From the NCBI GenBank assembly GCA_938091335.1, contig CALLJG010000014.1, positions 1 through 64,000 on the forward strand: a DNA stretch of 64,000 nt, read 5' to 3'. This document shows positions 50,564 to 64,000 of the stretch, piece by piece. The position numbers and the translations under genes are program-made. Source of the stretch: an uncultured Thermodesulfobacterium sp. Lineage in GTDB: Bacteria; Desulfobacterota; Thermodesulfobacteria; Thermodesulfobacteriales; Thermodesulfobacteriaceae. The notes under the pieces were generated by a model that was not told where the DNA came from, ran no database searches, and saw only the letters and a program-made list of their open reading frames with translations. Each line of letters opens with the position of its first letter. Positions within the stretch are counted from its first letter, which is position 1.

Positions 50564-52198
50564 ATGAGTATAAATTTTAGAGAACTCCTTTCTAAGGAGG
50601 ATTTTCTTTTTACCTTTGAATTGGTGCCAGGAAGAAGTGTTCGTACTAGGCAATATCAAGAAATCCTAAGATTTCTTCAGGAAAGTGTAGAAAAAAGGAT
50701 TTTTCAGATTTTTTCCATCACAGATAATGCAGGAGGGCATCCTGCTCTTTCTCCTATACCTCTTGGTAAAACTATTAAAAAACTTGGCTTAGAGGTAATT
50801 ATACATTTTTCTTGCAAAGATAAAAATAGAAATCAAATTGAAAGCGATCTTCTTGCTTTGGATAGAGAGGGTTTGTATAATCTTTTAGTTTTAACTGGAG
50901 ATTATCCCTTCTATGGATATTTGGGGAAGGCTAAACCAGTCTTTGATTTAGATTCAGTGCTTCTTCTTCAAATGATTAGTGAAATGGAAAAGGGGATAGA
51001 ACTTCCTAAAGGATCTCCAGAAGGAAGAATAAAACTTCCAGAAATTCCCTTTTTTAAAGGAGCTGTAATTAATCCCTTTAAAATGACTTATGAAGAATTA
51101 TTTTGGCAGTACTTAAAAGGTTATAAAAAATTAAAATCTGGAGCTAAATTCATTATAACTCAAGTTGGATTTTATCCACTGAAATGGAAAGAACTAAAGC
51201 TCATTCAAGAGATAGGCTTTTCTAAGATTTTTTCAAGCTTTTTAGAAGAAATAAAGGAGGATGAAAAGGAGGATGAAGTTTTCAAAAATATTCCATTTAT
51301 TGGAAGTATCCTTTATTTAACTCCCTCTTTGGTAAAATTACTCAAAAAGGGAGGAATTCCTGGTATTCTTATAACAGAGACTATTTTAAGAGAATTAGAA
51401 AATGCTCCTGACTTTGAAAAGAAAAACATAGAAATTTTAGCTAAATTTACCTCTATTTTAAAAGCCTTAGGATATAGAGGGGTTCATCTTTGTGGATTTC
51501 CCTTAGATTATCAAAAAATTTTCCTTTTTTTAGAAACTTTTTACAAATATGAAAATAAAGGTGAGGACTTTATAGAGGAGTTTGGAAATAAAGTAAAGCT
51601 TGAGTTACCAAATGAGACTTTAAAAGGTGAGCTTCCTACTCTTTTGACAAATGGCTTTACCTTTCCTCTAAAAAATAAATTTAGTCCTACTTACATAATT
51701 AACGAACTTATCCACAAGATTTTTTTTAATCCCTCTAACTTTCTATTTCCTCTTATAAAAAAAATCATTTTAAGGATAGATAAAAGTTCACGCCTGAAAA
51801 AAGCTTTTACTTTCTTTGAATATTTTATAAAAAAGATTCTTTTTAATTGTGAGGAATGTGGTGATTGCACCCTTTGGGAGTTCAATTATCATTGTCCTCA
51901 GAGTGGGTGCGCCAAATATTTATTAAATGGACCTTGTGGAGGAAGTATAGCTGGTTATTGTGAAGTCTACCCTTTTTTAAAAAAGTGTCATTATGTAAGT
52001 GCCCTTGAAAGGGCAACCTCTAAAAAAGCTTTAAAAAAGTTTTTTTATCCCTATAAAAATTTTTATCTGCCCCCAAGAAATTGGGAACTTTATAAGAGCT
52101 CTTCTTGGCTTAATTTTTATTTAGAAAGAGAACATCATAAAGATGAGAAAAGGAATACTATAAAGGAGTTCCTTAAAGAAAAAGATCCCCAATGTTAA
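50564..52198 (+). CDS. metF: Methylenetetrahydrofolate reductase fused to a MetV-like C-terminal domain
   Basis: 544 residues. The MTHFR barrel spans about 1-320: FTFELVPGRS, FSITDNAGGHPALSPI, LLVLTGDYPFYGYLGKAKPVFDLDSV. The C-terminal domain carries eight cysteines (429, 432, 435, 444, 449, 458, 466, 475), including CEECGDC and YLLNGPCGGSIAGYCE. These match the metal or Fe-S site of MetV (MTHFR_C). MetF reduces methylene-THF to methyl-THF; with MetV it may use electron donors other than NADH. Converges on the formate dehydrogenase gene with a 15-base gap. It is a paralogue of the MetF-AcsD fusion. Confidence 0.88.
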   Translation: MSINFRELLSKEDFLFTFELVPGRSVRTRQYQEILRFLQESVEKRIFQIFSITDNAGGHPALSPIPLGKTIKKLGLEVIIHFSCKDKNRNQIESDLLALDREGLYNLLVLTGDYPFYGYLGKAKPVFDLDSVLLLQMISEMEKGIELPKGSPEGRIKLPEIPFFKGAVINPFKMTYEELFWQYLKGYKKLKSGAKFIITQVGFYPLKWKELKLIQEIGFSKIFSSFLEEIKEDEKEDEVFKNIPFIGSILYLTPSLVKLLKKGGIPGILITETILRELENAPDFEKKNIEILAKFTSILKALGYRGVHLCGFPLDYQKIFLFLETFYKYENKGEDFIEEFGNKVKLELPNETLKGELPTLLTNGFTFPLKNKFSPTYIINELIHKIFFNPSNFLFPLIKKIILRIDKSSRLKKAFTFFEYFIKKILFNCEECGDCTLWEFNYHCPQSGCAKYLLNGPCGGSIAGYCEVYPFLKKCHYVSALERATSKKALKKFFYPYKNFYLPPRNWELYKSSSWLNFYLEREHHKDEKRNTIKEFLKEKDPQC

Positions 52199-52213: not shown

Positions 52214-55200
52214 TTATTCTGCCAATTTGATATTTACAGCTGAGACTTTATATTCTGGAGTTTCCATAAGTTCATCTAAGCCCGGACTTATAAGAAGATT
52301 AGTAAGAGCACTCTCAAAGTGAAAATTAGTAAAAAGTAGTCCTTGAGGTACTCTTGAATTTAGTTTTACTCTAAAAAACACTTCTCCTCTCTTATTCCAA
52401 ACCTTTACTAAAGCACCTTCTAAAAATTTTAGCCTTTTTGCATCCTCAGGATTAAGTTCTATAATTGGGTGTGAATAAACTCTTGTAAGAGCTTTGCTTC
52501 TTTTTGTCATACTACCTACATTATAATGTTCCAATTTACGAGCAGTTACAAGAATAAAGGGAAATTCAGGGGTTGGTTCTTCAAAAGGTGGAACATATTT
52601 AACTATAGCCAAATGGACTTTGCCTTTAGGGAAGCCTGAAGTAAAAAGTATAGGTGTACCAGGATGATTCTCATCAAAACAAGGCCATTGAATACCAATT
52701 TTAGATAATCTCTCATAAGAAAGCCCTCGCCAAGCCTGCCAAACTTTCCCTATCTCTTTTAAAATTTCTTCAGGTGAGTTGTAATTCCATTTAACTCCTA
52801 ATGTTTCTGCTAACTTGGTTAAAATTAACCAATCTGGAAGTGCCTCTCCCGGAGGTACAACTGCTTTCTCAAAGAGCTGAACTCTTCTTTCAGTATTAGT
52901 AAAGGTGCCACATTTTTCAAAATGACAAGCTGCTGGCAAAATAACATGCGCATATTTTGCTGAAAAAGGCATAAAAATATCTTGAACTACTAAAAACTCC
53001 AGATTTGAAAGAGCTTTCCAAACTTGCCCTAGATCTCCATGACTCCGAGCTATATCATAACCCATAGCGTAAAGTGCCTTTAATTTTCCAGAAAGAGCAT
53101 CTCTTAGCATAGTTGAAAGAGTTTTTCCTTCTTGAGTAGGAAGATCTGTTCCCCAAACCTCTTGAAATTTAAGCCTTACAGACTCATCTAAGTAATTCTG
53201 ATATCCAGGAAGAACATGGGGTAAACCTCCTATATCACAGGCACCTTGGACATTATTCTGACCTCTAAGAGGCATGGCTCCACATCCAGGTTTTCCCCAA
53301 AAACCACAAAGTGTAGCCAAATTAGCAGCTGCCATAGCTGCATAAGTTCCTGAACGATGCTGAGAGACTCCTAAACCCCATAAAATTAAAGCACTCTTAG
53401 CTCCTGCATATAAATAAGCTGCCTCTTCAATTAAAAAAGGTTTTAGACCCGTATATATGCTTGCCTTTGCTAAATTCCATTCATTGAGAATATAATGTTT
53501 ATAAGCCTCAAAGTTCTTTACATATTTTTCAATAAACTCCTCATTATAGAGTTTATCTCTTATTATTACATAAGCCATGCCATTTAAGAGTGGTACATTA
53601 CTTCCAGGACGAAGAGGTAAAAAGATATTAGCCTTATCTGCAAAATAAATTCTTCGAGGATCTGCTACAATGCATTTTGCACCATTATTTAAGGCTTGAA
53701 TTACTTTTTGGGAAACAATGGGATGAGTTTCAAAAGAATTTGTACCAATGAGAAAAAGAAGTTCAGCCCTTAAGATTTCATCAAAATTCACACAAGCAGC
53801 TCCTATTCCTACTGTAGCTGCAAGACCCATGGCTGAAGGAGCATGGCAGACACGAGCTGAATTATCAATATTATTCGTCTTAAAAATACTACGAGCTATC
53901 TTTTGCATTAAATAATTTTCTTCATTACTCACTTTAGATGAACAAAGAAATCCTAAAGCTTGTGGTCCATACTTATTCTTAATGTTTAAAAATCTTTCAG
54001 CCACAAATTTTAAAGCAAAATCCCATGAGACTTCTTTAAATTCCTCTGAAGTACTTTCTCTTAAAAGTGGCTTGGTTAACCTGTCAGGGCTTTTATAATA
54101 TTCAAAACCAAACATACCCTTTACACAAAGAAAACCATAATTAGGAGGAAGATCTCTACCCGTAATCTCTAAAATAGTTCCATTTTTTACCCAAATTGTT
54201 ATATTACAACCTGTCCCACAATAAGAACATACAGATTTCACTGCTTTTGCTTTCTTTCTGTTATAAGGCACCAAAAGATCTTTTTTTATTAAAGCACCTG
54301 TTGGACAAACATCTACACAGACTCCACAATTAATACAAGCCTCTGTAAATCTAAAGGTTATGTATTCAGTAGATTTTCCTTTGTTTACCACCTTAAAAAA
54401 GATAGCTGAATAAGGACAAATTCTTACACATCTCTCACAAGCAATACATTTATTTAAATCTACTTCAATCAAAAGATGCTCTTTTTGAATAGGATACTTC
54501 ATCCTTTTTCTTGCTTTGGTAACATTAATATCCTCTTTAATGATAATTTCTCTAAATTCACACTTATGAATACCCAAACAACCACATCTAAGACATCTAT
54601 TGGCCTCTTTTACAGCCTCTTCAGGAGTTAACCCTATTAACACCTCTTCAAAATCTTTTATTCTAAGCTCTGGATCTCTCTCTTTGAGTTTAGCCCTTTC
54701 TTCTGGTGCAAAAAGATCAAGAAAATTTGAATCAAATTCCTCTGCCCTTTTTCCTCTGGTAAAATCATATTTAATTGAAAAAGGTGCCTTATCAATAGCT
54801 TTTCCCTCTAAAAAAGCAGAAATACTCTGAGCAGCTTTTCTTCCTGATGCAACAGCCTGAATAACTGTCCTAGAACCATAAATAAAGTCGCCTCCTGCAA
54901 AAATACCTTCTAAATTTGTTTGTAGAGTTTGAGAATCAACTTTAATATTACCTTCAGGAGTAATTTCTAATTTTGCCTCTAATTCACCATATTTTATAAA
55001 TTCCTCTGATGGAATTTCTCCCCAAGCTCTAAAAACAAAATCAAAGGTTTCTTCAAAGGCTGTGTCAAAAAGAAACTTAATCTCTCTTTTCTCTGTGAGA
55101 GAGGTTCTAACTAAAATAAGCCGATATTTCTCATTACTTTTAGTTAAATCCCAAGGAGCTGTTACATATACAAACTTTACTCCTTCTCTTTCAGCATATC

Positions 55201-56308
55201 CTATTTCTCTTAAAGGAACAGGAACCTCCATACGAGAACGAGGATAATAAACACTTACCTCAGCTCCTAATCTTCTTAAAACCCTTGCAAGCTCAACTGC
55301 AGTATAACTACAACCAAGTATGGCGCATCTCTTTTTTTGATAATTTTGATAATAAGAAGGCTTTTCTTCTCCCTTATTAAACCGATAAAGAAATTCTAAC
55401 CCACTTTCTGCTAATTCTTCCCCCCTAAAACCAAAAAATTTTTCCTTTCTTGCCCCAACAGCAAGAAAAATAGCTTTAAACCCTTCCTTTTTTAAATCTT
55501 TAAGAGTAAAATCTTTACCCCAAACTTTTCTACCTTGAAATTTAATTCCCATCTTAAATATATTTTCTGTCTCTCTTCTTAGCACCTCTTTTGGCAATTT
55601 ATAAGTAGGAATACCGTATCTAAGTAATCCTCCAGGTTCCTCTTCTTTATCAAAGATAGTAACCTCATATCCTTTGAGTCTCAAAAAATAAGCACAACTT
55701 AACCCAGCTGGACCAGCTCCAACTATAGCTACCTTTATCCCGTTTAATTCTGGAAGATCTATAGGAAGCTCTCCAAACTCATAACAATAATCAGCAACAA
55801 ATCTTTTTAAATTATTGATAGCAACTGCTTGATCAACTAAAGCTCTTCTACAAACAGGCTCACAAAATCTGGGACAAACTCTTCCCACCGAAGCTGGAAG
55901 TGGAAGCTTTTCCTTTATCAAAGCCAAAGCAGCTTTAAAATCTCCTTTGGCTATAAAACCAATATAACCTTGAATATTTAAACCACCTGGGCAAGGAGTA
56001 TGACAAGGCGCCTTACAATCTCCATAATGATTGGCAATTAAATTTTCTAAAATTTTCCTTCTTATTTCCTTTAATTCAGGGGTAGTTGTCTCAACAAAAA
56101 TTTCCTTTTCAATTCTATATTCACAACTTCTAACAATACCTTCACCTTCAATCTTAACTACACATAAACCACAAGAATGAATAGGGGGGATCTTATCTCT
56201 TAAATAACATAAGGCAGGAATATAAATGCCTTCTTTTTTAGCTACTTCAAGTAAATTAGCCCCTTTCTCAACTAAAAGCTCTTTATTATCAACTTTAATT
56301 CTAATCAT
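52214..56308 (-). CDS. fdhA: Formate dehydrogenase fused to an NAD(P)H/FAD oxidoreductase
   Basis: 1364 residues in one chain. Order: 2Fe-2S ferredoxin (Cys34, 46, 49, 62); GltD-type Fe-S helical domain (CKAPCHTPCPGG and VCPRFCEPVC, residues 98-153); FAD/NAD(P)H domain (GAGPAG at 197, second nucleotide fold near 328, AGGDFIYGS near 471); two 4Fe-4S clusters (621-631 and 658-668); and the molybdopterin FdhA domain (Cys694, 697, 701, 728). The catalytic position is Cys821 (ARVCHAPSAMGLA), not selenocysteine. It would interconvert CO2 and formate with NAD(P)H and perhaps ferredoxin, the first step of the methyl branch. Downstream end of the acs cluster. Confidence 0.9.
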   Translation of the reverse strand: MIRIKVDNKELLVEKGANLLEVAKKEGIYIPALCYLRDKIPPIHSCGLCVVKIEGEGIVRSCEYRIEKEIFVETTTPELKEIRRKILENLIANHYGDCKAPCHTPCPGGLNIQGYIGFIAKGDFKAALALIKEKLPLPASVGRVCPRFCEPVCRRALVDQAVAINNLKRFVADYCYEFGELPIDLPELNGIKVAIVGAGPAGLSCAYFLRLKGYEVTIFDKEEEPGGLLRYGIPTYKLPKEVLRRETENIFKMGIKFQGRKVWGKDFTLKDLKKEGFKAIFLAVGARKEKFFGFRGEELAESGLEFLYRFNKGEEKPSYYQNYQKKRCAILGCSYTAVELARVLRRLGAEVSVYYPRSRMEVPVPLREIGYAEREGVKFVYVTAPWDLTKSNEKYRLILVRTSLTEKREIKFLFDTAFEETFDFVFRAWGEIPSEEFIKYGELEAKLEITPEGNIKVDSQTLQTNLEGIFAGGDFIYGSRTVIQAVASGRKAAQSISAFLEGKAIDKAPFSIKYDFTRGKRAEEFDSNFLDLFAPEERAKLKERDPELRIKDFEEVLIGLTPEEAVKEANRCLRCGCLGIHKCEFREIIIKEDINVTKARKRMKYPIQKEHLLIEVDLNKCIACERCVRICPYSAIFFKVVNKGKSTEYITFRFTEACINCGVCVDVCPTGALIKKDLLVPYNRKKAKAVKSVCSYCGTGCNITIWVKNGTILEITGRDLPPNYGFLCVKGMFGFEYYKSPDRLTKPLLRESTSEEFKEVSWDFALKFVAERFLNIKNKYGPQALGFLCSSKVSNEENYLMQKIARSIFKTNNIDNSARVCHAPSAMGLAATVGIGAACVNFDEILRAELLFLIGTNSFETHPIVSQKVIQALNNGAKCIVADPRRIYFADKANIFLPLRPGSNVPLLNGMAYVIIRDKLYNEEFIEKYVKNFEAYKHYILNEWNLAKASIYTGLKPFLIEEAAYLYAGAKSALILWGLGVSQHRSGTYAAMAAANLATLCGFWGKPGCGAMPLRGQNNVQGACDIGGLPHVLPGYQNYLDESVRLKFQEVWGTDLPTQEGKTLSTMLRDALSGKLKALYAMGYDIARSHGDLGQVWKALSNLEFLVVQDIFMPFSAKYAHVILPAACHFEKCGTFTNTERRVQLFEKAVVPPGEALPDWLILTKLAETLGVKWNYNSPEEILKEIGKVWQAWRGLSYERLSKIGIQWPCFDENHPGTPILFTSGFPKGKVHLAIVKYVPPFEEPTPEFPFILVTARKLEHYNVGSMTKRSKALTRVYSHPIIELNPEDAKRLKFLEGALVKVWNKRGEVFFRVKLNSRVPQGLLFTNFHFESALTNLLISPGLDELMETPEYKVSAVNIKLAE

Positions 56309-56332: not shown

Positions 56333-57229
56333 CTATAAGTCAAGCCAAGATTCAGAGAATATGGTCTGCCCAGTTAAAACTTTAACAGTTTTATAAATTT
56401 CGAGTTCTTTGGGAGTGAGACTTTTAGGATCAGGATCATCTCCATCCATTATACGATGAACTAATGCTACCCAATTAGGATGTTGCCCTTTTGCAATTTC
56501 TACTAATTCTTTGTCATAGATATCAAGAATAGCACTATAAATATTGTATTTCATTAACATCATAAGTAAGACCCTATTTAAATAGGGTCTTAAACGGCTT
56601 GAAACCCCGTTTGAAACATTAGAAAGACCCACTATACTCTTTGCCCCAGGAGCAATATCTTCTAACATAGAAAGAAAAAGAAGACTCTCCTTGATTTGCT
56701 CAGCACCTAAAGTAATAGGAGTAATAATAGGATCAACCCAAATTTTTTCATTAGGAATTCCATATTCATTTAATCTCATAATTAAATCCACAGCTAAAGC
56801 TGCTCTTTCATTAGCATCTCTAGGTAAACCCTCAAGTCCCCAAAGTAAAGCTACTACTTCACAGCCCTTTTCTGCAGCAAAGGGACCAAGTTTTTCAAGT
56901 CGCTCTGGTTGAATAGAAACAGAATTTATCAAAATTTTGGAAGGATTTTTAGAGGCATTAACACCTGCTATAATAGCCTCTGGATTCGTTGTATCAAGAG
57001 AGATAGGGGTATCTACTATCTCTTCTACTATTTTTATAATCCAACTTGCAAGTTCTGGTCCGTCCTTTTTGGCAGGTCCTATATTTAAATCCAAATAATC
57101 TGCTCCAAGTGCTGTTTCTTCCTTTGCCATCTTTTGGATTGGTACAGGATTACGCTCTTTCATAGCCTGACCAGCCCTTTTACCCATAATATTTATACTT
57201 TCTGCTATACAAATTACTGTCTGAGCCAT
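56333..57229 (-). CDS. acsE: Methyl-THF:corrinoid iron-sulfur protein methyltransferase
   Basis: Moves the methyl group of methyl-THF to the cobalt of AcsCD. 298 residues with the pterin-binding TIM barrel: ESINIMGKRAGQAMKERNP, GADYLDLNIGPAKKDGPE, ISLDTTNPEAIIAG, ILINSVS, WVDPIITPITLG, and SIVGLSNVSNGVSSRL. It lies between the formate dehydrogenase (24-base gap) and acsC. Confidence 0.92.
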   Translation of the reverse strand: MAQTVICIAESINIMGKRAGQAMKERNPVPIQKMAKEETALGADYLDLNIGPAKKDGPELASWIIKIVEEIVDTPISLDTTNPEAIIAGVNASKNPSKILINSVSIQPERLEKLGPFAAEKGCEVVALLWGLEGLPRDANERAALAVDLIMRLNEYGIPNEKIWVDPIITPITLGAEQIKESLLFLSMLEDIAPGAKSIVGLSNVSNGVSSRLRPYLNRVLLMMLMKYNIYSAILDIYDKELVEIAKGQHPNWVALVHRIMDGDDPDPKSLTPKELEIYKTVKVLTGQTIFSESWLDL

Positions 57230-57252: not shown

Positions 57253-58623
57253 TTATGAAGCCTTCTTTAATTCTTGCAATTCTGCATATAATTTCCTTAA
57301 AGAAACAGATAAACCACTTGCCTCCCTTGGTCCAACTATAATTTCCCAGCCTGGTAACTCCTCTTCTAATTCCCCTTTAATCCCTGCTAAATATCCTGGA
57401 ATCTTAAGTTTTCTATGCTTTATCTTATTTTCTATCCCACATCTTTTAACAAATTCTGCAATACTATCAGCACCAAATTTCCCTGCTGCCCAAGCTGTAA
57501 GAACTGAAAGCCCATCAGTATTTTGAATAAGTAACCAGGTTGGAACCCTACTTCCCTCTATTTCTCCCTTCACAATAAAATAGGTTAAAGCAAAATTACA
57601 AGTAATAGCAACAGGAGAATATTCATCAGGCCCATTAATTGGATAAATTCCTTCCTCTACAACTAAGGGCTTCTGTGGATCAGTAAAAATATTCATTCTC
57701 TCAACCAATAAGTTAAATAAACTCTCAGCCCTAAGATCTGAAAAGATAATTATACTTGCATATTTAGCAATTAATAATCCTCCTAAGACACTCTCTAAAA
57801 GATAATCTTCTGTATATCTATAAGGAAAGGTTATCACAGGAAATCCAAAAGGTTTAAATCTCTTTTTTATGGCAGCTCTTCTAATAATTATTAAATCTTC
57901 AAAAAGCTCCTTCACCCCCAAAGCCCCTGAATCCAAAACCAAATCCTTTAAACCACTTTGAATACCTTTCTCAGCAAGTTCAATTAATTCATCTAAAGAG
58001 TTCGCAACCAGAGTTAAAGGGACGTTTTTTTCTTTAGCTAATTTAAACATTTCTTCATAGTTTTCTATACTCGCTCCATAAAGCAAAGGTTTAAAATCTT
58101 CACAAAAAGAGAGGACTTTTTCTAAAGATGGCACATCTGCAGAAAGAATAAGAGCCTTCTGAGGAAGTTCTTCTCTAACCCTCTTTACTAAATCTATAAA
58201 TTTTGATCCATCTACTTTTCCTTGTATAAAAATAACTTCTGGTTGAAGTTTTATCCCTATTCTATCCCAAATTAATCTCTTATAAAGCTCTATTCTTCTA
58301 GCTATTTCTGTCTCATCCATGTTTGTACTAATATAAGTTCCAATTAAAGGAGGATTTTCAAAACGCTTCTCATGTCTAAAAAGAACTGTCTCTCCTCCCA
58401 AGGAGTAAATATAGTCTCCTCCTCCAAGCTTTACAGTTCTAATAGGTGGAGCTGTGGCCTCAGCAATTTCTTCCACTACCTTAGGATCCACATAAGGACA
58501 AGCTGTAATTTCCGCTTGCCCAGCAGCTACTTTCATAGCAAAAGCTAAACAGGTAGGATAGCCACATTCATTACAGTTTTTTTTGGGTAGCTTAGCCAGA
58601 ATCTGAATTCCTGTAAGACCCAT
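57253..58623 (-). CDS. acsC: Corrinoid iron-sulfur protein, large subunit
   Basis: 456 residues. The N-terminal 4Fe-4S domain has Cys17, Cys20, Cys25 and Cys42 (NCNECGYPTC), followed by a TIM barrel (about 60-310) and a C-terminal B12-binding domain (about 320-456). It forms the CFeSP with AcsD, carrying the methyl group between AcsE and AcsB. Gaps of about 23 bases separate it from acsE and acsB, indicating one operon. Confidence 0.94.
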   Translation of the reverse strand: MGLTGIQILAKLPKKNCNECGYPTCLAFAMKVAAGQAEITACPYVDPKVVEEIAEATAPPIRTVKLGGGDYIYSLGGETVLFRHEKRFENPPLIGTYISTNMDETEIARRIELYKRLIWDRIGIKLQPEVIFIQGKVDGSKFIDLVKRVREELPQKALILSADVPSLEKVLSFCEDFKPLLYGASIENYEEMFKLAKEKNVPLTLVANSLDELIELAEKGIQSGLKDLVLDSGALGVKELFEDLIIIRRAAIKKRFKPFGFPVITFPYRYTEDYLLESVLGGLLIAKYASIIIFSDLRAESLFNLLVERMNIFTDPQKPLVVEEGIYPINGPDEYSPVAITCNFALTYFIVKGEIEGSRVPTWLLIQNTDGLSVLTAWAAGKFGADSIAEFVKRCGIENKIKHRKLKIPGYLAGIKGELEEELPGWEIIVGPREASGLSVSLRKLYAELQELKKAS

Positions 58624-58646: not shown

Positions 58647-60869
58647 TTATATTAAAGGTGGTAATTTTAACATAGGATGCTTTACCTTTTGTATCCAAGC
58701 TTTTACTTCTTCCTCAGTAACTGCAACAGTTTCGTCAGCGATTTTATCAATTAAATCAGAAACTCCAAGTTCTTCTGCTCTTTTCTGTAATTTCTCCCTC
58801 AATTCTTCTTTTAGCATCTTAGGCATCCAAACAACTCTAAGAAGTCCTTCCTCTGCAGATAAAAATTTAGGAGAAGTTATATAATGTTTTGAAATTCCCA
58901 CAAAACCAGGAGTTATTCGTCCTCCTCCTATCATACCTGCTAAAGTTGAAAATTTCATCCCGCTAGGTGTCATCTCCGTATATTCTCTATTTACTATCAT
59001 AATACCATTAATAGAAGGAAGTAAAGCTGCAATACCTTCCATACATCCACAAACTGTCATAGGATCAATTAAAATACTATATAGACTAACTCTCTCTATT
59101 GTTCCTCGAGAAGCCTGCTTAATAAATTCATTTATACCAGAAAACTGTCCTAACCTTTTATCAATTACCTTATCTTTAGAAATAGGCTGATTAGGTCCTA
59201 TGGGCTTGATCTGATAACAAGCCTTGGCATCAAGCCAATTATAAGCACCACATGGACCTATTCTCTCAGGTGTAATTATACACACATGGTTAGGAGCAAA
59301 ACTCTGACACAAAGTACAAGAATAAAAAACATCTACAGTTTCATCAGTAAGACCAGCAAGTTTTGCATCCCTTCTTTCATAAATACCTTTAGCTAATTCG
59401 ATAATTTCTCTTACCTTATCCTCTATGGTATAAATAATTACTTGACATTTATCTACAATAGCACCATATTCTTGCTTTAACTTAGCATAAAGAATACGAC
59501 CAATATGTTCAAACTTAAAACCTTTCCCCACAGCTTGTTTACTAATTCTTAACCACATAATATTTCTCTGACCAATATGCATAATCCCCTGAGCATAGTT
59601 TATTAAGTGATGGAACTGTCTCTCTAAAATAGCCTCAAAATCTTCCTGCATATTAACTCCTGCAACTTTCACTACTACTGCAAAGGGAAGAACATAAGGA
59701 GGTCCTTTGAGACCAAGTTTTTCTACATCACTTATTTCAGGTCCTATAACCTCAATCTTGCCATCCTCAACTTCCTCCAAAGGAGCAGAAACTAAAAACT
59801 CAACTGCAGGAGATCTTCCACCACCACACTCTAAATAAAGATCATCTTTTCTTACCCTTTCTCCCTCAAAAGCTGGAGCATAAGCTACTGGTATGTCAAG
59901 CTTGACAGCTGTAACTTTTAATCCTCTTACTTCAATGGCTCTATCTACAATTTCTGAATGAGATACTTTAGAAACTACATGCTCATATGTACAAACACCA
60001 AAGGGTTTAATCTCAGGAATATCCCAATCAGAAATTACAGGAAATCCCCAATTTATAGCTCCAGCTCCATTAGCATACCACTCATCAGATACAGAACCAA
60101 AGGTAATAACAAAAGCAAAAGTTCTATCTTTATTATAAAGAAGATTCCCTAAATAATCTCCAGGTTTAATTCCACCAAAAGACATAGCCACTCTACAAGC
60201 AAACCCAATAGCAAAAACAACTGAGGTATAATCTGGACCAAAGGGAATTAAGCGTGTAGGCCAACCCAGCTGAACACCAGCCTCTTTAAGTAGATAGGGC
60301 ATATAAATACCATTGGTTTGATCATGCATAAAGACATATAGATTCTTCTCTAATAGCTCTTGAGCAATTTTTTGGGCTATCTCTTTATTAGGAGGTGCTC
60401 CAAGAATAGCTGCAAAACCAGGTGCTGTCCCGTCCACAAACTCAACTCCCCTTTTCCTGAAAATTGTATCATCTGCAGCTCCAAGCCAAATATTATTTTC
60501 TAAAGGTTCTTCAGTTTTGGTGTATACATTGGGATTTTCTAAGTATTTTATAGCCTCTATTATTTCCTCTGCAAAAAATGTTGCCATCCCAGCATCAAGT
60601 ACAGGCCCTAAATAAGGAAGCCAAGTCCTCTCAGAAGGTATATCAGGTAGTAATCTCTTGGCTTCTTGAAGTACTTCTTCACAATCTCCTAAGCGCTTCA
60701 CAGGATATCCTAAGATTGCATAAATAATAGGTAAATAATAAGCAGTATTGGGGAAACCAATTTCAGCCTCTTTTCCAAACTTTTTTACAGCCTCCTCATA
60801 TTTTTCAAAAGCCCTCTCTACAATCTTATAAGCTCCTTTTATAGCAGCTGTTGCTATAATTTTAGACAT
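58647..60869 (-). CDS. acsB: Acetyl-CoA synthase (CODH/ACS alpha subunit)
   Basis: Joins CO, the methyl group from CFeSP and CoA into acetyl-CoA at the Ni-Ni-[4Fe4S] A-cluster. 740 residues, full-length bacterial type including the N-terminal CODH-contact domain. A-cluster ligands are seen at Cys518, Cys521, Cys530 and Cys540 (SCTLCQSFAPNHVC, GPCGAYNW) and the C-G-C motif Cys607/Cys609. Spacing is identical to the Moorella enzyme (offset 12). The CO dehydrogenase subunit is not in the window, so it must be encoded elsewhere. Confidence 0.96.
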   Translation of the reverse strand: MSKIIATAAIKGAYKIVERAFEKYEEAVKKFGKEAEIGFPNTAYYLPIIYAILGYPVKRLGDCEEVLQEAKRLLPDIPSERTWLPYLGPVLDAGMATFFAEEIIEAIKYLENPNVYTKTEEPLENNIWLGAADDTIFRKRGVEFVDGTAPGFAAILGAPPNKEIAQKIAQELLEKNLYVFMHDQTNGIYMPYLLKEAGVQLGWPTRLIPFGPDYTSVVFAIGFACRVAMSFGGIKPGDYLGNLLYNKDRTFAFVITFGSVSDEWYANGAGAINWGFPVISDWDIPEIKPFGVCTYEHVVSKVSHSEIVDRAIEVRGLKVTAVKLDIPVAYAPAFEGERVRKDDLYLECGGGRSPAVEFLVSAPLEEVEDGKIEVIGPEISDVEKLGLKGPPYVLPFAVVVKVAGVNMQEDFEAILERQFHHLINYAQGIMHIGQRNIMWLRISKQAVGKGFKFEHIGRILYAKLKQEYGAIVDKCQVIIYTIEDKVREIIELAKGIYERRDAKLAGLTDETVDVFYSCTLCQSFAPNHVCIITPERIGPCGAYNWLDAKACYQIKPIGPNQPISKDKVIDKRLGQFSGINEFIKQASRGTIERVSLYSILIDPMTVCGCMEGIAALLPSINGIMIVNREYTEMTPSGMKFSTLAGMIGGGRITPGFVGISKHYITSPKFLSAEEGLLRVVWMPKMLKEELREKLQKRAEELGVSDLIDKIADETVAVTEEEVKAWIQKVKHPMLKLPPLI

Positions 60870-60886: not shown

Positions 60887-63355
60887 TTAACTTGAATTTA
60901 AGGCTGCAAAAAGCTTTTTACAAAGCTCTACAGATTTAGGATGCCTCATAATAAGTAAATCCCCACCTGCCAAAGCCAAAGTCACTCCTGTTAATGCTTC
61001 CATTAAAATACCCCTTCTTTCTGAATCACCCATTAAATCATCACTAGGAAGCCCTGCCTCTTTAGTTTTCCAAACCTCCTTTCCAATACTACAAATAAAA
61101 GGGACTTGAAGCTTTGTATCCTGTGCAAAAAGAGCTGCAAGCCTAATCCTTTCCATAACAGAATAAGTATACTCCAATCCATATCCTAAAGCTCCGATAG
61201 AAGGATCCATAAGAATTTTATCTAAAGATAGTCCCATATTTTCAATAAGAATGTTTAATTGTTTAGCTAAATTCACATCAATAGGAGTTGAGGCAATCAC
61301 AGGAGTATTATAGCCCATAGCAACAGCAGCTAAAGTCTTATAATTTGCCTCAACAACAGGCCCTAAAACTACCCCTCTTCCCCCAACTATATCTGCCAAA
61401 TCTCTCAAAACTTCTACATCTTTTTCTGCATTCCCAGAGCCCCAAACAATTAAAGGAACATCTACTGCTGAAAGTACCTTCTCTACTACTTTCTTTGCAT
61501 GATCTGCTGAAAGATCTAAATAATTAGGATCTGTTCCCAAAAGATATAAACATATAGCTTCTGCATCATATTCCTCTACACACTTCTTTGCCCATAGCCC
61601 AGGATCATAAAAAACATCACTAAAATACTTAGCTAAGCTCTCAGGCCAATCCTCAGGTTTTACATCAAGGATTTCCAAAGCAAACTTTACCCCATTTCTC
61701 ATCTCCCCCTCAAAATAATGAAAATTAAGTGCTGAAACCCCTCCTACCTTAATAACTTTCTCACCTTTCCCAATAACTACTTCTTTGATCTCAGCTGTAG
61801 ATTTTTCTATATATAAATCCTCTGCAATCTTTGAAGCTCTCTCCTTTAATGGCCTATAATCCCTCTTAAATTCTCCAATCTTAATTTCAACACCTTCTTT
61901 TTCTATAACAACAGGTTTCTCTTCTGCCTTTATCTCTGTAATAATCTCTTTTTCTACTTCAACTTTAGCCTCTTCTTTTACCTCTGCCTTAAACTCTTTT
62001 ATTATCTCTTCCTTTACTTCTTTCTCTTTATAGATAACAGGTTTTTCTTCAAGCCTTTCTTCAGGTCTTATCTCAGGAGACACTTCAGGTTTAGGCTCTT
62101 TTTCTATTTCTTCAACTTTTCTAACCTCTCTCATAACAGAAACTCTTCCTTTTTTCCCTAAAAACTCCTCTTCCAGCTTAGCAAGTGCCTCTTCCAAGGA
62201 TTCCATTCCTGCCTTTATATTTTTTAAACTTGCCTTTAAATCTGAAAGCACTTCAATCATAGTAGCTTGAGAAAACTTTTCTTGAGCCATTTCTGTCTCC
62301 AAAGGTATTTCTTTCTCAACTACTTTTTCAACTACTACTTCTATAGGTTTTTCAACAATTTTTTCAACCACTTTTTCTACTACTACTTCAACAGGCTTTT
62401 CTATCACCTTTTCCACCACAAAAGGTGGCTGAATCTCAGCAATCATCTCTCTAGGATATAGCCCTGCTCTTTTTACAATCTCAGGCACTGACTCTTCCCA
62501 TTCAATAGCCATTATGTGCACCCCTTTTACCCCAGGAATCTCCTTAAGCTGCTCAATTATATCTACTGCAATCCGAATTCCCTCTTCCCTTTTATCCTTA
62601 GCAGATTCAAGTCTTTTAATAATTTCATCAGGTACCTCCAAACCTGGTACATTGTATTTCATGTACTTAGCCATCCCTAAAGATTTAGGAGGTGTAACCC
62701 CTCCTAAAATATAGACTTGATCAAGAAGCCCTAAATCTCTACATCTCTCTATGAATTTTCTAAATTTCTCAACATTATAAATTATTTGAGTTTGAATAAA
62801 ACGAGCCCCAGCCTTTACTTTTTTTCCTAAACGATATGGTCTAAATTCAAAGGGATCTGCAAAGGGATTTTCCGCTGCTCCTAAAAAGAAATAAGGTCTT
62901 TTCCCTTTTATCTCTTCAGAATTATCAAATCTTCCTTCTATCAGACCCTTTACTAAATTTAAAAGCTGAATAGAATCTAAATCAAAAACTGGTTTTGCTT
63001 GGGGATGATTACCAAACTTAGGATGATCCCCTGTTAGACATAATAAGTTTTTAATTCCAAGTGCACTTGCCCCTAACAAATCTGCTTGAATGCCAATTCT
63101 ATTTCTATCTCTGCAAGTCATCTGTATAACTGGTTCTAATCCTTCAGACATAACCAAAATTGCTGAAGCCATACTGGAAACCCTAACTACTGCTGTCTGA
63201 CAATCTGTAATATTTACTGCATCTACATAACCTTTAAGGAGTTGAGCTTTTTTTCTTATAACTTCTCCATCTGCATTTCTTGGTGGCCCGATCTCAGCAG
63301 TTACAGCAAATTTCCCAGACTCTAAAATCTTCTGAAGTTGACTTTTTGTCTCCAA
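60887..63355 (-). CDS. acsD: MetF-AcsD fusion: methylene-THF reductase joined to the corrinoid protein small subunit
   Basis: 822 residues in one frame. Residues 1-305 are a complete MTHFR barrel (FAVTAEIGPPRNADGE, VNITDCQTAVVR, NLLCLTGDHPKFGNHPQAKP, VYILGGVTPPKS). Residues about 311-350 hold a V/E/K repeat (EKPVEVVVEKVVEK at 319 and EKPIEVVVEKVVEK at 335), about 355-400 a likely coiled coil, and 405-500 a Glu/Lys-rich spacer. Residues about 500-822 are AcsD (VSALNFHYFEGEMRN, LLGTDPNYLD, SAVDVPLIVWGSGN, LMDPSIGALGYGLEYTYSVMERIR). It would make methyl-THF and form half of the corrinoid protein. Between metV and acsB in the operon. No frameshift is needed. Confidence 0.92.
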   Translation of the reverse strand: METKSQLQKILESGKFAVTAEIGPPRNADGEVIRKKAQLLKGYVDAVNITDCQTAVVRVSSMASAILVMSEGLEPVIQMTCRDRNRIGIQADLLGASALGIKNLLCLTGDHPKFGNHPQAKPVFDLDSIQLLNLVKGLIEGRFDNSEEIKGKRPYFFLGAAENPFADPFEFRPYRLGKKVKAGARFIQTQIIYNVEKFRKFIERCRDLGLLDQVYILGGVTPPKSLGMAKYMKYNVPGLEVPDEIIKRLESAKDKREEGIRIAVDIIEQLKEIPGVKGVHIMAIEWEESVPEIVKRAGLYPREMIAEIQPPFVVEKVIEKPVEVVVEKVVEKIVEKPIEVVVEKVVEKEIPLETEMAQEKFSQATMIEVLSDLKASLKNIKAGMESLEEALAKLEEEFLGKKGRVSVMREVRKVEEIEKEPKPEVSPEIRPEERLEEKPVIYKEKEVKEEIIKEFKAEVKEEAKVEVEKEIITEIKAEEKPVVIEKEGVEIKIGEFKRDYRPLKERASKIAEDLYIEKSTAEIKEVVIGKGEKVIKVGGVSALNFHYFEGEMRNGVKFALEILDVKPEDWPESLAKYFSDVFYDPGLWAKKCVEEYDAEAICLYLLGTDPNYLDLSADHAKKVVEKVLSAVDVPLIVWGSGNAEKDVEVLRDLADIVGGRGVVLGPVVEANYKTLAAVAMGYNTPVIASTPIDVNLAKQLNILIENMGLSLDKILMDPSIGALGYGLEYTYSVMERIRLAALFAQDTKLQVPFICSIGKEVWKTKEAGLPSDDLMGDSERRGILMEALTGVTLALAGGDLLIMRHPKSVELCKKLFAALNSS

Positions 63356-63368
63356 AATAACCCTCCTC

Positions 63369-64000
63369 CTATATTTCTAGATCTTCTCTCACTCTAATTC
63401 TTAACCCCTCTCCACCTGCTGGTCTCCAATCCTTTGGTTTCCATATTTCTAAAAGTTTCTCCATCTCTCCTCTACTCTTAAGCCTTTCTACAATTTCATG
63501 CCAAATACAACTCATATCCTTTCTTACCTCACATTTTCCACCTTTGGAACCCCCACAAGGGCCATTTAACAAATTTTTGGCACATCGAGCAATTGGACAA
63601 AGCCCTGCAGTCTTATCAATAATACAATCTCCACATCCTCTACACTTCTCTACCCACTCTCCCAGAGCAATATTTGCTCCATAAAAGGAGGTATCAACCC
63701 CTGGATAAACCCTTAACTCTGGATAAAGATCCGCAATTAAATTAACCCCCACTCCACAGGCAAGACTAACCACTGCTTCAACCTTTTTTCCTAACTCTTT
63801 CAAAGGTTCCAAATATTCTGGATCACATTGTCTGATAAAAGTTGTCTCTATTATTTCTATCTCTTTACCCTGTCTACTTCTTGCTAATCTTAAAGCTTCA
63901 GCCAAAATAGCAACTTCTCTATCCCCACCTGCAGAACAAACAGCTACACATCCTCTACATCCAAGCAATAAAACTTTTTTATAAGGCTCAATATTTTCTA
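63369..64000 (-). CDS. metV: Methylene-THF reductase partner MetV, N-terminus outside the window
   Basis: At least 210 residues; the frame is open to the right edge (ENIEPYKKVLLLGCRGCVAV), so the true start lies beyond 64000. MetV binds Fe-S or zinc and pairs with MetF in Wood-Ljungdahl bacteria. Cysteines: GCRGCVAVC near the visible start, KCRGCGDCIIDKTAGLCPIA, then KNLLNGPCGGSKGGKCEV and CIWH. It ends 13 bases before the MetF-AcsD gene, whose MetF domain is its presumed partner. Confidence 0.9.
   Translation of the reverse strand, partial: ENIEPYKKVLLLGCRGCVAVCSAGGDREVAILAEALRLARSRQGKEIEIIETTFIRQCDPEYLEPLKELGKKVEAVVSLACGVGVNLIADLYPELRVYPGVDTSFYGANIALGEWVEKCRGCGDCIIDKTAGLCPIARCAKNLLNGPCGGSKGGKCEVRKDMSCIWHEIVERLKSRGEMEKLLEIWKPKDWRPAGGEGLRIRVREDLEI

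Follow-up and report, generated by a model that had tools for sequence, protein, structure and literature searches.

The corrinoid iron-sulfur protein of the Wood-Ljungdahl pathway consists of AcsC and AcsD and is known in complexes with the methyltransferase AcsE (4djd) and with CODH/ACS (9fzy). There AcsD forms a subunit of its own, about 307–323 residues long, without MetF or a long N-terminal tether. In the Hdr-type MetVF reductases of Moorella and Sporomusa, as described in the available passages of PMC9430772 and PMC5736913, MetF is a free protein (35 kDa in Sporomusa). Here we describe a gene, metF~acsD (the tilde marks a fusion), in which the two proteins are joined. It lies on a 64,000-nucleotide stretch of DNA from an uncultured Thermodesulfobacterium sp. 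(contig CALLJG010000014.1, positions 1 to 64,000; hereafter the window). Its AcsD part matches the corrinoid protein small subunit over the full length (45% identity to 4djd_D), and MetV adjoins its MetF part, with HdrA-, HdrC- and MvhD-like genes just upstream, as in Hdr-type MetVF; unlike the MetF of those reductases, however, that of the window is fused to AcsD. From the sequence and its relatives we consider it fairly probable that the product is one chain of about 92 kDa, in which MetF and AcsD are connected by a long and largely unfolded tether with a central coiled coil, and that a tethered Wood-Ljungdahl assembly is organised around AcsD as its hub.

The fused gene and its linker

The gene and its parts are located as follows.

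60887..63355, minus strand: metF~acsD fusion gene, 822 residues, calculated mass 91.8 kDa, TTG start (open reading frame, Pfam)
62450..63355, minus strand: MetF domain (methylenetetrahydrofolate reductase, MTHFR), residues 1–302; PF02219 at residues 7–298, AlphaFold2 model resembling solved MTHFRs
62300..62434, minus strand: V-E-K repeat of the linker, residues 308–352
62159..62269, minus strand: coiled-coil helix of the linker, residues 363–399; AlphaFold2 helix with a predicted local distance difference test score (pLDDT) of about 55–67, and heptad test
61841..62149, minus strand: E/K-rich spacer, residues 403–505, mostly low-confidence in the model
60890..61813, minus strand: AcsD domain; PF03599, and 4djd_D with E 1.8e-78 and a TM-score to target of 0.88

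The first-pass annotation had read this region as a single uninterrupted gene of 822 residues for MetF and AcsD, and this was borne out. The frame has no internal stop, its TTG start is preceded at a distance of 5 nt by a strong Shine-Dalgarno stretch (GGAGGAGGG), and both Pfam domains score far above their cut-offs: PF02219 with 144.7 bits against a gathering score of 24 (E 4.9e-42) and PF03599 (CdhD, residues 525–766) with 147 bits against 24.8 (E 7.3e-43). The MetF part falls short of the NAD(P)H-dependent MTHFR equivalog TIGR00676 (76.9 versus 293.7 bits), and the adjoining metV suggests a MetF domain of the MetVF type. The AcsD part belongs to the NCBIfam delta-subunit subfamily NF003376 (376.7 bits, cut-off 280) and stays below the cut-offs of the WLP_AcsD exception model NF040759 (291 versus 430 bits) and of the cdhD equivalog TIGR00381 (232.5 versus 252.9 bits). 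Searched against the PDB by sequence and by fold, the fusion matched the small subunit of the corrinoid protein (4djd_D, 2h9a_B, 9fzy_E) and several MTHFRs. In the AlphaFold2 model (mean pLDDT 72.5, predicted TM-score 0.47) both domains are mostly well predicted with a few weak loops, and the linker lies mostly below a pLDDT of 50. A Pfam scan of the fusion at E 0.001 found MTHFR and CdhD only, and neither a lipoyl nor a peripheral-subunit-binding domain. An assembly error or chimera was ruled out, as many genomes, those of isolates among them, have the fused frame as well.

The linker had been described as V-E-K repeats, a coiled coil and an E/K-rich spacer, which holds, and as 190 residues long, which has to be corrected to nearer 210 (209 residues between the two domain alignments). 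The V-E-K repeat is visible at the DNA level too, as tandem units of 12, 24 and 48 nt. In the coil, every a/d position of the tested 35-residue stretch is occupied by a hydrophobic residue, a value attained by none of 5000 shuffles. In a comparison of the window with seven relatives, each of the three linker parts had a higher proportion of synonymous (pS, 0.49–0.91) than of nonsynonymous differences (pN, 0.14–0.49); pN was 0.09–0.20 in the MetF and AcsD domains, and the spacer was the least conserved linker part with respect to the nearer relatives. Many dN/dS ratios are not computable because pS is saturated. The linker looks constrained at the protein level, as would be expected of translated sequence. 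In the two linkers of about 440 residues that were scanned (L044 and L045), TPR repeats are present between MetF and AcsD.

Distribution, origin and loss of the fusion

Among the best 80 loci from a scan of genome contigs, the closest belong to Caldimicrobium and Thermosulfurimonas. Both domains occur in one frame at 59 of 111 loci, a count that includes the window's own locus and some duplicates. AcsD is present in 38 of the 41 genomes of the class Thermodesulfobacteria. In 31 of these 38 it lies in frames of 722–895 residues; 28 of them were read directly and hold MetF, and three (G298, G300, G311) are counted by frame length alone. MetF and AcsD are split in four genomes (G100, G310, G313, G317), and the remaining three have AcsD fragments (frames of 645 and 649 residues in G307 and G309; a contig end in G297). 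Across the phylum Desulfobacterota the fusion was read directly in at least 27 of 297 genomes from 12 families, a lower bound since only the best loci were considered. In a sample of 218 genomes of the phylum, AcsD was detected in 142 at E 1e-30 or better. It shares a frame with MetF in 16 of these and with CODH in two; all other AcsD frames are shorter than 700 residues except that of G179, which is a read-through. The long AcsD frames of G064, G154 and G179 were rejected as fusions as they overlap AcsB or AcsC frames and contain no second tested domain. The sample from outside the phylum covers 36 of the 37 non-Desulfobacterota loci (L075 left out) and consists of genomes chosen for their MetF, not systematically. 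AcsD was found in 32 of these 36 genomes, as a fragment only in G331, G338, G345 and G351, as the only recognised domain of a 528-residue frame in G356, joined to AcsB in G354 and G357, and otherwise in frames of 295–371 residues; among the 36 genomes, four of them represented by a fragment only, none showed AcsD fused to MetF. The fusion is not a quirk of one assembly.

In a tree of concatenated AcsD and AcsB with 37 rows, the 33 fused and split rows are separated from the four unfused ones by a 100/100 branch. In an AcsD tree of 48 rows, which include 14 unfused ones, 26 fused and four split rows are again united at 100/100, in a clade with rows from 11 numbered families; the split rows are nested inside the class, without a firm position within it. 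A topology in which the 21 fused rows of the class form a clade without the four split rows is rejected by the approximately unbiased (AU) test (p-AU 0.005). One fusion and one later fission are therefore the simplest account. Since metF is located directly upstream of acsD in the unfused loci L046 and L051, the fusion is likely to have arisen by loss of the metF stop codon. A stop in the linker of relatives, which the first-pass annotation had named as a sign that the true gene is two, does occur in 4 of the 38 AcsD-bearing genomes of the class, where the AU test indicates a derived split.

The four split genomes share one arrangement: the end of MetF is followed by a Shine-Dalgarno-like signal (GGAGG- or GGGGG-like) and by AcsD starting from an ATG with an N-terminal coil. 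In the same four genomes the N-terminus of CODH carries a coil like that of the AcsD linkers (L171:13991-16219(-); also L175, L176 and L177). A profile built from ten fused linkers only, searched against 7780 open reading frames from loci of 6 kb and more, finds these four CODH N-termini with E 1.4e-8 to 1.2e-4, the next match outside AcsD having E 0.97. A second coil profile, A2, trained with two split AcsD coils included and no CODH, gave 38 matches below 1e-5 in the 41 whole genomes. Of these, 34 are linked to AcsD (that of G297 lying in an unread 441-residue fragment) and four are CODH N-termini, from exactly the four split genomes; the next match has E 0.003. The CODH coil of G100 has hydrophobic residues at 90% of a/d positions (p 0.0004). 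We infer that AcsD and CODH may contact each other through their coiled coils in the split clade.

A proposed tethered assembly and its alternatives

We propose that AcsD and AcsC together make up the corrinoid protein, and that MetF pairs with MetV and, judged by gene order, with the HdrA-, HdrC- and MvhD-like proteins. The fusion would then hold MetV-MetF beside the AcsC/AcsD corrinoid protein and, through it, beside AcsE and CODH/ACS. If the coil acts as an oligomerising or docking element, it might gather MetF, the corrinoid protein, AcsE and CODH/ACS in one loose cluster, in which the tethered corrinoid protein could swing between partners at higher local concentrations and with fixed subunit ratios. 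A Gaussian-chain estimate suggests a local concentration of the order of 1 mM for such a tether.

Further fusions among proteins of the pathway are relevant to this model. AcsC and AcsE occur in one frame in 5 of the 37 genomes that have AcsE at E 1e-40; the frame was read in G100, G180 and G317 (by Pfam in G100 and G180) and is indicated by its length in G313 and in G310 (579 residues, contig end). In G180, a relative from the same genus, MetF~AcsD and AcsC~AcsE chains coexist; between them they contain every protein of the assembly named by the first-pass annotation except MetV, which is a separate gene beside them. AcsD and CODH form one frame in G026 and G102, which are not sisters in the tree.

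L172:10111-12561(+) and L171:6461-8863(-), also L175: AcsC~AcsE, with K/E-rich linkers in L171 and L172
L228:3316-6684(+) and L229:925-4374(-): AcsD~CODH of two other Desulfobacterota, with an A/P/E/K-rich linker of about 185–210 residues
L234:3274-6885(-) and L235:2965-6651(-): AcsB~AcsD of two Chloroflexi genomes (G354, G357)

The linkers examined in these other fusions are long and either charged or A/P-rich, and a short helical stretch is recognizable by eye in that of AcsB~AcsD. Some unfused AcsD proteins of Desulfobacterota have long C-terminal tails, which are charged and Ala-rich in L162, L164 and L166 and different in L158. AcsD may be a recurrent anchor, tethered to CODH or AcsB in other lineages, with its partner AcsC tethered to AcsE. 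More tentatively, and with somewhat less than an even chance in our estimation, AcsD could be a tethering hub of a Wood-Ljungdahl metabolon, bound in different lineages to MetF, CODH or AcsB via long linkers with a mid-linker helix, with AcsC sometimes fused to AcsE. In the split clade the lost MetF tether would have been replaced by a coil handshake between AcsD and CODH, and some species would also make free AcsD from an internal start, which would set the ratio of tethered to free protein.

The assembly MetV-MetF~AcsD-AcsC-AcsE suggested by the first-pass annotation fared unevenly. The probable single origin, the spread over 12 families and the additional AcsC~AcsE chain of G180 speak for it, the four split genomes and the incomplete occurrence of the gene set against it; taken together, a physical assembly of pathway enzymes is supported by these comparisons. 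Tethering is co-location and is by itself no demonstration of channelling, i.e. transfer of methyl-tetrahydrofolate without release. Proximity alone need not accelerate a freely diffusing intermediate. Several other observations also weigh against the tethered assembly. The fusion was lost once within the window's own genus, and because the split is derived in those four genomes the fusion is dispensable and covalent linkage not essential. The clusters of the fused loci L048-L065 and L089 contain no window-like MetV or AcsE, so that the full gene set is not universal. The AcsC~AcsE genomes form no clade in the AcsD tree and this fusion is therefore without a simple history; G180 pairs with G028 (98/96), whose AcsE is free. 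The linkers are very divergent, with 104 to 465 residues between the domain alignments, and their low-complexity parts were aligned by protein likeness, which lowers pN. Homology between the Thermodesulfobacteria coil and the helical core of other classes is unsupported (hhalign probability 29%), the core of L055, the sole sequence tested from another class, has no canonical heptad (p 0.52), and the linkers of four short-linker genomes (G028, G065, G227, G311) lack a match to the coil. Finally, according to the available part of PMC9430772, the MetVF complex of Sporomusa ovata migrated at 140 kDa free of other proteins, although AcsC and AcsD appeared among its inconsistent contaminants.

One gene could also give two products, if an ATG just before the coil additionally yields free, coil-bearing AcsD of about 52 kDa. 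This would be compatible with a tether and would uncouple the amount of corrinoid protein from that of MetF. A candidate site is present in the window:

62288..62300, minus strand: possible internal start, GGAG (62297-62300), 6 nt, ATG (62288-62290, residue 356), near the AcsD start of the split relatives

We regard this as possible and yet rather unlikely. In the four split relatives AcsD begins at the corresponding position, after the signals described above. Among 61 representative linkers a core was recognized in 58, and an ATG lies near it in 40 and is absent in 18. At 31 of the 40 core ATGs the Shine-Dalgarno energy ranks among the top 10% of positions in the linker concerned, and at 25 among the top 5%; the binomial p of this survey overstates the case because its rows are related. 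The synonymous-codon control, by contrast, is weak, with a median p of 0.26 over 40 genes (nine under 0.1) and of 0.11 over 12 Thermodesulfobacterial genes. The window entered the survey with the ATG at residue 366; residue 356, scored separately, gives a modest signal (-6.4, within the top 11% of linker positions; synonymous-codon p 0.085). An internal start yielding free AcsD is suggestive only.

That the fusion is neutral, loss of the metF stop having joined operon neighbours through a linker tolerated without a role, seems improbable to us. The adjacency of metF and acsD in L046 and L051, the variable length and letters of the linker and a fission without loss of pathway genes are all compatible with it. 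Against it stand the retention of the fusion by a 100/100 clade spanning 11 numbered families, the constraint on the linker, the coil that was kept after fission and appears on CODH, and the other fusions within the same pathway. Still less credence is due to the possibility that the chain is always cut after translation and the fusion is a precursor only: the window's linker, long and mostly below a pLDDT of 50, is perhaps easily cleaved, but retention of the coil on AcsD in split genomes speaks for its use in the mature protein. We give just as little weight to a role in electron delivery, in which the tether would bring AcsD/AcsC to Fe-S partners (MetV/Hdr or CODH) able to return the corrinoid from its inactive Co(II) form to the reduced state. 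Fusion partners do sit with Fe-S proteins, and HdrA-, HdrC- and MvhD-like genes precede MetV in the window's genome. However, the RACo-type activator family PF14574 is present in 40 of the 41 genomes of the class, including that of the window, so that a dedicated activator probably exists and a missing corrinoid activator is unsupported as the reason for the tether. Moreover, some fused clusters (L039, L233, L048-L065/L089) are without Hdr genes in the stretch read, and a link of the fusion to Hdr-type electron supply as a rule was rejected on this ground (Hdr genes elsewhere in these genomes were not sought).

Gene neighbourhood and relation to known systems

The fusion is part of a cluster that extends beyond the window and reads Fhs, FolD, CODH, a 954-residue HdrA-like protein, a 212-residue FlpD/MvhD protein, a 179-residue 4Fe-4S protein (HdrC-like), a 131-residue FlpD/MvhD protein, MetV, MetF~AcsD, AcsB, AcsC, AcsE and Fdh. 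Its genes within the window are the following.

63369..63998, minus strand: MetV, 5' end past the window edge, full open reading frame of 222 residues in L170 (PF12225, E 1.3e-35)
58647..60869, minus strand: AcsB (acetyl-CoA synthase), between the fusion and AcsC (NF040764, 1052 bits)
57253..58623, minus strand: AcsC (NF003195, 540 bits)
56333..57229, minus strand: AcsE (methyl-tetrahydrofolate:corrinoid methyltransferase; PF00809; NF005719 195 bits, below the cut-off of 259)
52214..56308, minus strand: large formate dehydrogenase fusion (2Fe-2S, GltD-like and FdhA parts), at the same place in many relatives

The gene order MetV-MetF~AcsD-AcsC-AcsE given earlier omits AcsB. A gene set of the Hdr-type MetVF is present in L170, where metV and hdrA-, hdrC- and mvhD-like genes cluster with metF. 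Pfam recognized the two FlpD/MvhD proteins, the 179-residue protein as 4Fe-4S and the 954-residue protein as 4Fe-4S/Pyr_redox; the names HdrA and HdrC were assigned by reading, and HdrB was not identified among the Hdr-like genes of the L170 cluster. The window encodes another, more distant MetF at 50564-52198(+), the C-terminal part of which resembles MetV (PF12225). In L233 (G028) and L039 an open reading frame of 474–493 residues with similarity to CODH, weak and partial in L233, lies between FolD and MetV; no CODH match at E 1e-60 was obtained in G028 and G065.

A description of a MetF-AcsD fusion was not found in the open-access PMC papers searched, subscription papers being outside this scope, and the fusion is absent from the available passages of PMC4911364, PMC8780430, PMC7117923, PMC10553843, PMC12827605, PMC5736913, PMC11508158, PMC9430772, PMC6895022, PMC9012536, PMC9982363 and PMC3584212. 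The genome paper of the clade member T. dismutans lists genes for MTHFR and CODH/ACS and, in the part available, leaves the fusion uncommented (PMC4911364). According to the accessible portion of its text, a study from 2026 on the pathway among Desulfobacterota dropped sequences with a domain structure unlike the query or with large insertions (PMC12827605). Surveys that discard odd domain architectures would lose such fusion proteins. The clade consists of CO2-fixing bacteria from hot springs and sediments and includes the isolates Thermosulfurimonas dismutans and Thermodesulfobacterium hveragerdense (L034, L039), which makes the proposal testable; the fission with a coil on CODH provides a ready-made test pair inside one genus. 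In this ancient CO2-fixation pathway the corrinoid protein has to reach several partners, a structural question on which natural tethers can shed light, as they reveal which partners evolution has favoured keeping together.

Beyond the two systems from which we set out, the bifunctional homocysteine S-methyltransferase/MTHFR (NF006396) resembles the window protein in that it joins an MTHFR to an enzyme or carrier involved in methyl transfer, and the window's MetF aligns to its MTHFR half with 230 bits. This is below the cut-off of 453 bits, and the window protein has no homocysteine methyltransferase domain, its partner being AcsD and MetF coming first. In pyruvate dehydrogenase E2, flexible linkers of Ala, Pro and charged residues connect folded parts, and a small helical element for docking lies between them; the likeness is one of outline and an analogy only, as by Pfam the window protein is MTHFR plus CdhD alone. 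The archaeal ACDS multienzyme complex unites CODH, ACS and the corrinoid protein in one large assembly, as is proposed here, but is held by subunit contacts of separate chains and does not include MetF. The enzymes of the fusion are known, and so is the idea of tethering enzymes; the combination appears to be new and its history unusual.

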